From: Phaeocystidibacter luteus
GTDB taxonomy: Bacteria > Bacteroidota > Bacteroidia > Flavobacteriales > Schleiferiaceae
Reading direction: 5' to 3'
Assembly: GCF_008933115.1 (NCBI RefSeq)
Contig: NZ_WBVO01000003.1
Span: 186,001-250,000 of the forward strand
DNA length: 64,000 nucleotides
Positions 1 through 2,437 of this stretch are shown here, one piece after another (within the stretch, counting starts at the first letter, position 1; every line of letters begins with the position of its first letter). The translations under genes and the position numbers were made by a program. The notes under the pieces were generated by a model. The model was not told the DNA's origin. It made no database searches and was given only the letters and a program-made list of their open reading frames with translations.

Positions 1-1083
1 GACTTTTACTACCGCTACTTACGTTACGATTGGCGGATGAGTTCCGTTCCTGAAGGTTACCTGTCCGATCGTTTACAGTTGGCTCTCATGGTTTCTGGAA
101 TTGATTGGGACCCTTTCATAAATGGGCAAGATAATAGTCCATTTTGGATTGAAGAAGAGCCGGAGTTTCGTCCTATCTCAGAAGACGGATTTACTCACCG
201 CGTAATTCTTGGGCCATCAAGTGAAAACCCGCATGAAATCTTCTTAAGGGTTTCAAAGATCAATGGAGATTACAGAATTGACTCACTTGACTTCATGTCG
301 GAAGATGTGCTCCGAACCCTTCAGCTATGGAAGGATATGAACCCAGATAGTGCCAACATGTTCCTCGAAGAGGTGATTTCTCATTTCAAATCGGAAGATT
401 GGGACAGAGCCGAAAACTCTGAGTACTATTCTAAACGATATCAAAAAGCGGTGGAGGTGTGGAACCTGCCGGGCATCCCGTTGCTCGGCACTTCTGATTG
501 GGGTCCATATGTGAGGACTTGGAACTATGATATTTACTTCAGTCAAGAAGCGACTTTTACACATGAGATTGGATGGGTAAGCGAAGGAAACTATTGGACG
601 ATACCAGTGAAGGTGATTGTCGAGGATGGGAAATACGTGGTTGATTCAATATCGGAAATAGATGAAGATCGGATGACGGCTATCAACCTCATTGGTACTT
701 ACGTGCTGCTAGATTCCCTCTTCGATAACTGTGTAGAAGCCAAAGTAACTCCAATTGAATTTCTACGTCAGGGTAAGGTCGATCTCGATAGCCTTGTAAT
801 TCATGCGAATATGCGCGAGCTGATGATTGAAGAAGGAGACTCCTTAGTTCCATATATCCCCAATGACTATTTGATCCTCGAATCAAACATTGATCTGGGC
901 CATCTCGCCTACGTTTATTACCCTGAGTTTAACCTCAAGGAAATTGAATTGGATTGGATTCAATTTGAGAATACGTCGACCAAATGTGATTCAATTCAAG
1001 CCGTTCTGTCTAGTTACAGCCTGTTTTACGTTGAGGATTACTCTATGGACGTCATTTTTTTAAAGCCTGTGTTTCTTCCTTAG
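1..1083 (+). CDS. DUF3828-like repeat protein, 5'-truncated by window edge
   Basis: The frame is open to the first base: in-frame codons before the ATG at 37 read DFYYRYLRYDWR with no stop, so the gene probably begins outside the window. At least two related units are visible. Unit 1 has YLSDRL, IDWDPFINGQD and then GDYRIDSLDFMSED. Unit 2 has YYSKRY, SDWGPY and then IPVKVIVEDGKYVVDS. A third, degenerate unit may follow. The 'YL..RL ... D.dPf.ngQD ... iPV.v..e.GkY.iD' pattern resembles the DUF3828 (NTF2-like) family of Bacteroidota envelope proteins. No enzyme motif is visible and the signal peptide, if any, is off the edge. Function unknown. Confidence 0.7.
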   Translation, partial: DFYYRYLRYDWRMSSVPEGYLSDRLQLALMVSGIDWDPFINGQDNSPFWIEEEPEFRPISEDGFTHRVILGPSSENPHEIFLRVSKINGDYRIDSLDFMSEDVLRTLQLWKDMNPDSANMFLEEVISHFKSEDWDRAENSEYYSKRYQKAVEVWNLPGIPLLGTSDWGPYVRTWNYDIYFSQEATFTHEIGWVSEGNYWTIPVKVIVEDGKYVVDSISEIDEDRMTAINLIGTYVLLDSLFDNCVEAKVTPIEFLRQGKVDLDSLVIHANMRELMIEEGDSLVPYIPNDYLILESNIDLGHLAYVYYPEFNLKEIELDWIQFENTSTKCDSIQAVLSSYSLFYVEDYSMDVIFLKPVFLP

Positions 1084-1127: not shown

Positions 1128-2120
1128 TTATGCGAAGTCCAAATCCATAGCCAAAAGCTTTTCCATCGCCCCAATTTGATCTCTCAGCTTTCGAAAGAAC
1201 TCGGATCTCTGCTTCTCAGCGCTACCCGAGATCAGCACTCCTAAGTTCGCATGTTGTCGAAAGGCCTTTTCGTAATCTTCACAAAAGTTGGGGTTTGTAG
1301 TATTCACGAAATTGATGCCGTTAAATGCTACCCAGGCCATTCTGTTGGGACCAAGCTTAGCCATGGCTCCATTGGCCATCATGAGAAAATCACATGAGTA
1401 CAGCTCGGCCTTAATCTTTTCCTTCTTCTCATTCTCTCTGGCTCTCGTCTCGCGTTCATCGATAAGCTTGCGCACGTCTTCTAAAACATGCTTTGCATCT
1501 TCTTTGTGTAGTAAGCCAGAACGATAATAGTATTGAATCTGTTCGAACACATTTGCCATAGTTCTTGGAGTCCATATCTCCGAAGTGGGCATGTCGTAAT
1601 ACGTTTGATTCAATTTATACCCAAGCTCCAATAGTTCTTTGGGAACCTTGTTGAAATCGAACACTTCATTACGTTCCATCAAATCGCTACCTGCATCCTT
1701 CAGCCATACTAATATTTTGAATGCTCCAAGGCTTGGAAACCTGAAATAAAAGAATAGCGGAAGGTCTCTAGCCGCATAGTATAAGGTCGCCTCAGGAATA
1801 TTTCGGAGAGTTTCTAGCTGCGCGAGTGTAGTGTGGAAGTAAAGCTCCATGGTTTCGAGCGATACCACCTCTTGAGTTTTTTTGAAAATAACAACCTGAC
1901 TGGGATCTGAATACATGGCCTCGTCAAGCGATATGAGATATCTTTCGCATAGCGTTGTCAGTTCCTCCGTACTAAACGGCGACTTCCCGCTGAGCTTTCT
2001 ATAAGCTGATGCGGTGGAAATACCTAAGTCGGAGGAGATTTGATCTGCTGGTTTGGTGTGCGCTGGAAGTTGACGTTCTAATAGGCGAACGAACTTCGAA
2101 TGAAATTCAGTAGCAGTCAT
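1128..2120 (-). CDS. Helix-turn-helix transcriptional regulator with large C-terminal region
   Basis: A 330-aa protein whose residues about 25-50 form a helix-turn-helix (ISSDLGISTASAYRKLSGK), followed by about 280 mostly helical residues with a charged stretch near 220-250 (ETRARENEKKEKIK) and no recognised domain. The C-terminal part may bind a ligand or mediate oligomerisation (inference). The open frame reaches 2180, but the ATG at 2120 is preferred: the extra codons overlap a perfect 17-bp inverted repeat (2158-2174) that looks like an operator, and the HTH region then begins near the N-terminus. Repeated TTCTCA/TGAGAA sites upstream suggest autoregulation. Transcription is divergent from a putative small RNA. 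I do not recognise a named family. Confidence 0.75.
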   Translation of the reverse strand: MTATEFHSKFVRLLERQLPAHTKPADQISSDLGISTASAYRKLSGKSPFSTEELTTLCERYLISLDEAMYSDPSQVVIFKKTQEVVSLETMELYFHTTLAQLETLRNIPEATLYYAARDLPLFFYFRFPSLGAFKILVWLKDAGSDLMERNEVFDFNKVPKELLELGYKLNQTYYDMPTSEIWTPRTMANVFEQIQYYYRSGLLHKEDAKHVLEDVRKLIDERETRARENEKKEKIKAELYSCDFLMMANGAMAKLGPNRMAWVAFNGINFVNTTNPNFCEDYEKAFRQHANLGVLISGSAEKQRSEFFRKLRDQIGAMEKLLAMDLDFA

Positions 2121-2138: not shown

Positions 2139-2280
2139 GAGAATTCTGGTGAAAAGATTCTCAGAATCTGAGAATTCCAATCACTCCAAGAAGCAAATTA
2201 TCAAAATTTGAGAAAATAGTATTCTGAATTCTCGTTTTTTGAGAATTGATTGCGTTTCGTTCTCATCATTTGAGAATTCA
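2139..2280. promoter_or_regulatory. Cluster of TTCTCA/TGAGAA(TT) inverted repeats, putative operator array
   Basis: Copies seen: GAGAATTCT at 2139-2147; a perfect inverted repeat TTCTCAGA-A-TCTGAGAA at 2158-2174; TTTGAGAAAA near 2207-2216; AATTCTC (2227-2233) facing GAGAATT (2241-2247) across 7 nt; TTCTCA (2260-2265) facing TGAGAA (2271-2276) across 5 nt. All lie between the HTH regulator start and the sRNA candidate. Their number and dyad symmetry suit cooperative binding by an HTH dimer. Binding by the adjacent regulator is inference. Confidence 0.6.
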
Positions 2281-2309
2281 ATACACCAATTCAGGTTACT
2301 TTTACACCA

Positions 2310-2437
2310 GAACCTAGAAACCAAGTTGGCCTCACATCCAAAGAATTATCGACTGACGAAGGTCTCTCACAACCTCTCAACCCGCCAGTCGACCTAAGCG
2401 GAAAAGCCCATCGAAACAAATCGGTGGGCTTTTTTTT
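2310..2437 (+). ncRNA. Putative structured small RNA ending at an intrinsic terminator
   Basis: No ORF occupies this interval. A weak -7-like TACTTTT lies at 2297-2303. The predicted transcript has a 7-bp stem TCGACTG (2349-2355)/CAGTCGA (2386-2392) and finishes in the terminator at 2403-2437, which no coding gene on this strand would use. The operator cluster lies just upstream, so expression could be controlled by the divergent regulator. No known RNA family was recognised; it could instead be an untranslated leader remnant. Confidence 0.4.
2403..2437 (+). terminator. Strong intrinsic terminator
   Basis: Stem AAAGCCCATCGA (2403-2414) pairs with TCGGTGGGCTTT (2421-2432), including one G-U pair, across a 6-nt loop. 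An unbroken T run extends to 2437. It ends whatever is transcribed rightward from the operator region. Confidence 0.85.

Follow-up and report, generated by a model that had tools for sequence, protein, structure and literature searches.

A registered array of operator-type dyads between an HTH regulator gene and a candidate divergent small RNA in Phaeocystidibacter luteus

Introduction

What purpose is served by the dense TTCTCA/TGAGAA repeats that precede the gene for a 330-aa helix-turn-helix (HTH) regulator in Phaeocystidibacter luteus, and which genes are under their control? The repeats lie in a 64,000-nucleotide stretch of DNA (hereafter the window), which corresponds to bases 186001-250000 of its contig in a genome of 3.2 Mb. 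A sequence-only reading of the locus had proposed that the HTH protein binds the repeats, represses its own gene and controls a divergent RNA. Arrangements of this kind are known from other bacteria and from phages. In E. coli, the gene for the transcription factor GcvA lies beside the divergent gene for the small RNA (sRNA) GcvB, which GcvA controls, and lambda cI, P22 c2 and the XRE/Rgg-type PrgX act cooperatively on multiple dyads located between divergent promoters. The comparative analyses described here support the proposed interpretation, and we consider it probable that the region is a shared control region for an autoregulated HTH regulator and a candidate divergent sRNA.

Results

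Reading rightwards, the locus consists of the regulator gene on the minus strand, the repeat array, the candidate sRNA on the plus strand, and a gene from 2928 which we take by eye to be ruvB (Table 1). The repeats are registered copies of one 17-bp dyad with two 6-bp arms and a 5-bp core, and not a loose cluster of hexamers. All three motifs by which the array had been recognized are present, namely the perfect 17-bp inverted repeat, the AATTCTC/GAGAATT pair 7 nt apart (2227-2233 / 2241-2247) and the TTCTCA/TGAGAA pair 5 nt apart (2260-2265 / 2271-2276). Four copies match TTCTCA-N5-TGAGAA with no or one mismatch and are spaced by 40, 31, and 31 bp. The fifth copy, which is the weakest dyad with three of six arm pairs, was missed in the first reading and was recognized via the orthologues described below. 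The array is thus real, with five registered dyads of the type TTCKCA-N5-TGMGAA, and larger than reported.

Table 1. Features of the locus, with positions in the window
Feature	Position	Strand	Basis
330-aa regulator; predicted HTH at residues ~1-72, likely PLD-like fold without HKD at ~76-320	1128..2120	-	ORF, Pfam, AF2, VIA-align
Putative operator site closest to the start of the regulator gene (-23 to -7), TTTGCGTGTAAAGAGAA	2127..2143	.	matching position in both orthologues
Putative operator site TTCTCAGAATCTGAGAA, perfect dyad, 0 mismatches	2158..2174	.	dyad search
Putative operator site TTATCAAAATTTGAGAA, 1 mismatch	2198..2214	.	dyad search
Putative operator site TTCTCGTTTTTTGAGAA, 1 mismatch	2229..2245	.	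dyad search
Putative operator site most distant from the regulator gene, TTCTCATCATTTGAGAA, 0 mismatches	2260..2276	.	dyad search
Putative -7 box TACTTTTA of the divergent transcript	2297..2304	+	TAnnTT(T/A)(G/A) pattern
Candidate sRNA, 5' end inferred; CTCAC modules at 2331-2335 and 2366-2370	~2311..2437	+	box, terminator, modules
Intrinsic terminator of the candidate sRNA, stem 2402-2414 / 2421-2433 followed by a T-run	2402..2437	+	

Such an array does not arise readily by chance. Among 3000 dinucleotide shuffles of positions 2121-2480, 12 contained one site with at most one mismatch and none contained more, compared with four in the real sequence. When any half-site and spacer were allowed, at least four sites appeared in 2 of 300 shuffles, and among 354 overlapping tiles of the window at least three sites were found only in the two tiles covering the array region. 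The TTCTCA hexamer by itself is not enriched in the window (63 occurrences, 56.65 expected), nor is the dyad at up to three mismatches over the whole window (41 versus 44.5). The signal is therefore one of good dyads in register at the array region. A 348-aa ORF downstream of the regulator gene (window 37-1083) gave no Pfam match at the family cut-off.

Orthologues of the regulator were found in two other species of the genus (loci L003 and L004; 75% and 74% identity), in both cases beside ruvB. Absence of the repeats upstream of orthologues had been named as an outcome that would speak against the reading; instead, all three orthologues, including the window gene, carry five sites at -156, -125, -94, -54, and -23 from the ATG (shifted by one base in L003), with a spacing of 31-31-40-31 bp in each. 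When this stretch is compared without gaps, identity in the three species pairs is 72%, 88%, and 67% at the 60 arm positions, compared with 28-32% at the 25 core positions and 29-38% at the 65 spacer positions, which indicates that the DNA between the sites is near saturation while arms and distances have been kept. When the five-site register was slid along the upstream region, the true register ranked top of 87-88 positions in each species, with 25, 25, and 23 of 30 arm pairs, as compared with 17, 21, and 19 for the next best register and means of 8.7-9.2. Individual sites vary: three of the five in L004 deviate from TTCKCAN5TGMGAA at two to three positions, and L003 has one site, TTTGCGAAATACGCAAA, of the TTTGCG type.

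Dyad symmetry and compensated changes are also typical of RNA stems, and the dyads could in principle form hairpins within a long leader, either that of the regulator mRNA or that of the divergent RNA. Of the 30 arm pairs compared between the window and L003, three have changed on both sides yet still pair, 18 are unchanged and nine fall in neither class; the corresponding numbers for L004 are zero, 24, and six. However, the constant spacing, the near-random cores, and the half-sites common to different sites and to unlinked genes favour DNA sites, and the farthest site would be left out of the divergent transcript, being upstream of its -7-like box. We regard the hairpin explanation as very improbable, and treat the dyads as putative protein-binding sites in what follows.

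Which protein would occupy these sites? Conservation of a site does not by itself identify its binding protein, and a different DNA-binding protein might occupy the array and control the regulator gene. The distribution of the dyad bears on this point. A homologue of the regulator is present in 69 of 88 genomes of the taxonomic family of the window, and a profile search of the three genomes of the genus gave seven family members (two, three, and two). These genomes contain 4, 3, and 6 perfect TTCKCAN5TGMGAA sites, compared with 1, 1, and 3 for the reversed pattern, a total of 13 versus five. Eight of the 13 are at the starts of family members and cover six of the seven genes: two upstream of the window gene, one of L003, two of L004, and one of L043, with one more in each of L002 and L044 lying across the presumed start codon. 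The seventh gene, L045, has TTTGCGAAATACGCAAA in place of a perfect site. Since these sites lie at scattered loci with different partner genes, the HTH gene is their common factor, which argues against another binding protein, as does the same kind of dyad in front of most distant relatives (see below); we consider this alternative improbable, and the regulator itself the better candidate to bind the array. In L002 and L044 (paralogue B), the presumed ATG, which is an uncertain assignment, falls inside the proximal dyad, and the regulator may therefore bind over the start of its own gene.

The spacing is also shared within the genus, as the paralogue dyads are 31 bp (L002 and L044) or 40 bp (L043) apart. 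Upstream of the seven genes, generic 6-5-6 dyads are repeated at lags of 31 (six pairs), 40 (four), 71 (four), and 102 bp (two), each expected at 0-0.1 from shuffles. None of these lags is among the 15 strongest in the 44 homologues found in the family outside the genus, where the strongest were 84 and 21 (five pairs each). A matrix built from the 15 orthologous sites was applied in the fixed five-site geometry to 50 loci, that is, to the 51 homologues in the window's family except L014, which has 174 bases of upstream DNA. It gave p≤0.05 in 11 of the 50, three of them training loci, and missed the paralogues L043 (0.08) and L045 (0.09); in L002, L044, L053, and L058 the fit is carried by a pair of sites 31 bp apart. 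Another of the 51, L011 (G018:C23:146539-147528), contains an in-frame TAG that divides it into frames of 136 and 210 codons; it is probably a pseudogene and was omitted from the protein alignment. Upstream of L016 and L019, in two other genomes, there are dyads with a different half-site, TTATCG-N5-CGATAA, which suggests that operator specificity drifts within the family.

No relatives from named genomes were found with the window protein itself as query, and a search with alignment A3 gave 59. Operators were counted in the 41 (L108-L148) that lie outside the window's group and are mostly Flavobacteriaceae; the remaining 18 (L090-L107) belong mostly to the window's own group, several being evidently the same contigs as loci already used, and were omitted. 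A perfect TTTGYGN5CRCAAA is present within -240..+15 in 31 of the 41 (none in shuffles), and a site with at most one mismatch in 35 (about 0.2 of 41 in shuffles), although the 41 are not independent events, as many are closely related Aquimarina species. Dokdonia and Winogradskyella are also among the relatives with related dyads, whereas the one Bacteroidales locus of the set, L145, has no site at up to three mismatches. Sites in the 41 recur at lags of 52 (17 pairs), 40 (nine), and 31 bp (four). The sites at genus members, together with the related dyad in 31 of 41 relatives, indicate that this operator accompanies the regulator family. The recognition helix (xDSAYRR / YDAAHRR versus xASAYRK) seems to covary with half-site type, which is suggestive, but no conclusion is drawn from it because the picture is mixed in paralogue B: L002 and L044 carry both types.

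The description of the regulator as unclassified was nearly right. It has no NCBIfam match, but residues 12-67 match Pfam BetR (PF08667) weakly (E 2.2e-5, 25 bits versus a cut-off of 21.6), over the HTH only. The match covers positions 12-67 of the 148-long model, so that the HTH segment scores above the curated cut-off, yet most of the model is unmatched. PF01978, the winged-helix domain of the TrmB family, was absent from the four Pfam families at E≤1, and a sequence search of solved structures gave no match at E≤1. A phage origin was also considered and rejected, as none of 50,697 phage records contained a relative (tblastn, E≤1e-5).

The AlphaFold2 (AF2) model, made with 50 family sequences, has a mean pLDDT of 90.6 and places HTH helices at residues 3-17, 24-32, 36-44, 51-61, and 65-69. 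Residues 1-72 superpose on lambda-type repressors (VIA 7jvt, 3kz3, and 1lmb) with Z 8.0-8.6 over 71-77 residues (rmsd 2.9-4.4 Å), and the N-terminus is thus predicted to be a five-helix HTH of the lambda-repressor/XRE type. The C-terminal part modelled alone (44 sequences) has a pLDDT of 92.2 and a pTM of 0.90. The 50 VIA-align matches listed for it are proteins of the PLD fold, judged by their titles, and include NucT, Nuc, Zucchini, PLD3/4, FAM83, polyphosphate kinase, and TrmB/TrmBL2; the best has Z 9.3 (rmsd 3.5 Å, 149 residues), near the range that the tool terms common. The leading Foldseek matches agree, with NucT best at E 0.019 and none at or below 0.001. Given these moderate Z and E values, a PLD-like fold for the C-terminal domain is likely and not settled. 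The HxKx4D catalytic motif is absent from all 50 family sequences, which makes PLD catalysis unlikely. Ligand sensing by this domain, as in TrmB, would be the natural alternative.

A DNA-binding domain followed by a PLD-like domain is an order shared with archaeal TrmB/TrmBL2 (VIA Z 6.9-8.4; 5bqt, 3qph, and 2f5t). TrmB is described as having a winged helix (PMC9426492). In contrast, the HTH of the regulator is predicted to be all-helical: residues 1-78 of the AF2 model consist of helices and loops with no strand, hence no wing, and identity to TrmB/TrmBL2 is 7-14% over the aligned part.

On the far side of the array, where a candidate small RNA had been placed, a promoter-like -7 box and a terminator occupy conserved positions in the same gap, and the unit that they delimit is probably non-coding. 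A TAnnTT(T/A)(G/A) box lies 176-177 bases from the regulator ATG in the window (L001), L003, and L004, and 174 bases from it in the paralogue locus L045; the pattern is loose, and both it and the 100-base stretch examined for modules were chosen after viewing the sequences. In the Bacteroidota promoter consensus, a -33 element precedes the -7 box by about 26 bases. A TTG/TTTG at a fitting distance is present in the window (TTTG at 2269-2272), where the farthest operator site covers it, and is absent from L003, L004, and L045. A terminator follows about 270-325 bases from the ATG in all four loci, the range for the window, L003, and L004 being about 270-310. In L045 (G030:C1:1289200-1292000), the unit extends on the divergent strand from about 174 to 325 bases from the ATG, with a strong terminator at about 300-323.

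In the orthologues, the sequence of the putative RNA has changed too far for blastn but retains two CTCAC modules. CTCAC, which also occurs twice in the tested stretch of L045, is the sole 5-mer that each of the four 100-base stretches contains two or more times, and any such 5-mer was found in 0 of 1000 shuffled sets, although for each stretch singly two CTCAC occur in 0.3-7% of shuffles. The four copies align poorly. By blastn, the sRNA body was not found in either of the other species, where the best match (E 0.06) fell on the terminator and at a different genomic place, and within the genus no copy but itself was detected at E≤0.05. No Rfam family reached its gathering score in the whole window; five Rfam matches in 2100-2930 (MIR828, Qrr, and others) scored 10.8-19.4 bits against cut-offs of 40-69, and membership in a known sRNA family was rejected, these being chance matches. 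Between the regulator gene and ruvB, there is no ORF of at least 100 aa in the window, L003, or L004; a 73-aa ATG ORF runs through the candidate unit in L004.

The array might instead serve the regulator gene only, with the downstream stem and T-run forming the end of a ruvB leader (an attenuator). The distances in the other two species would suit such a leader, as ruvB starts 362 (L003) and 378 (L004) bases from the regulator ATG with the T-runs at 310 and 305. In the window, however, ruvB begins about 490 bases past the terminator. Moreover, the like unit of L045, with two CTCAC, a -7-like box, and a terminator, has no divergent ATG ORF of at least 100 aa within 520 bases, and the next long ORF on that strand (188 aa) starts about 575 bases away. 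A ruvB leader is thus unlikely, and a separate divergent RNA, presumably transcribed from the -7-like box, is the reading we prefer. Compared with the other two species, the window has about 430 additional bases between the terminator and ruvB (2440-2927); this segment has a longest ORF of 65 aa and contains a short tandem repeat, ATGGCTTCAA twice, at 2504-2523.

At other loci of the family, the divergent unit is often a secreted-looking protein. A divergent ORF of at least 100 aa accompanies 42 of the 51 homologues; these make up 12 groups, of which the biggest has 18 members and the next eight, one tested member of the latter being Mpo1-like (PF06127). The 41 distant relatives have further groups, many with signal-peptide-like starts by eye. 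The tree places L045 as the sister of L002 (support 98/89). Since L002 has a secreted-looking protein on its divergent side, candidate RNA and protein stand in equivalent positions at the two loci.

Discussion

In the mechanism that we propose, dimers of the regulator would bind the 17-bp dyads, and dimers about three helical turns apart could touch, fill the array cooperatively and silence both promoters until a ligand is bound. The 31-bp spacing within each group of sites, being about three helical turns, suggests cooperativity along one face of the DNA. The two nearest sites (-54 and -23) would serve the promoter of the regulator gene itself, and the three more distant ones (-156, -125, and -94) the sRNA promoter; as the 40-bp step parts these two groups, different thresholds would be allowed. 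The most likely mode of control is repression that is lifted when the putative PLD-like domain at the C-terminus binds a small ligand. Alternatively, activation of the sRNA by the regulator is possible.

This mechanism would be a variant of autoregulated repressors with a divergent target. As in GcvA/GcvB, the regulator gene and the sRNA gene, here a candidate, point away from each other on either side of a control region. Unlike GcvA, which is of the LysR type, the regulator is predicted to combine a lambda-type HTH with a PLD-like fold and is associated with a five-site operator array and an unrelated sRNA. The lambda-repressor-type HTH and the multiple dyads are likenesses to lambda cI, P22 c2, and PrgX, whereas the C-terminal domain is predicted to be PLD-like rather than protease-like or TPR.

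Among the open-licence PMC papers listed by literature searches, none was on this regulator family, judging by titles and abstract openings. As far as these searches go, the family, its operator code, the predicted architecture of HTH and catalytically dead PLD, and an sRNA in the place of a protein partner are new. More tentatively, and with rather less confidence than in the control region itself, it is tempting to speculate that an undescribed and widespread Flavobacteriales family, with a lambda-type HTH and a catalytically dead PLD-like sensor, acts as a local switch from phased arrays, and that evolution has swapped what fills its divergent output slot. In most cases this would be a secreted or membrane protein, whereas at two loci in this genus, that of the orthologues and L045, it would be a novel sRNA class with CUCAC modules that signals to other genes in trans.

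The operator of a common regulator family of marine Bacteroidota can be read from sequence, as TTCKCA-N5-TGMGAA or TTTGYG-N5-CRCAAA at fixed spacing upstream, and this makes tests of binding, ligand, and targets direct, also in Aquimarina or Dokdonia. If true, the joining of a lambda-type HTH to a dead PLD-like domain, and an sRNA in the position that a secreted-looking protein has in a close paralogue, would be useful examples of regulatory rewiring.

A wider regulon was considered and is not claimed here; further targets may exist. The perfect sites away from family members (five of 13) equal the reversed control in number, and by eye no common gene surrounds these five. Relaxed searches of the window's own genome gave 54 TTTGYGN5CRCAAA sites with at most one mismatch versus 36 in the control, and 229 dyads with up to two mismatches versus 180. 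Tandem half-sites 31 bp apart gave 22, 19, and 18 matches versus 0, 3, and 3 for the reversed pattern, which is a poor control for such A-rich half-sites because its make-up differs. One perfect operator-type dyad, L076 (G031:C48:14712-14728), possibly a chance occurrence, lies beside a 123-aa ORF that resembles a small XRE-type HTH protein.
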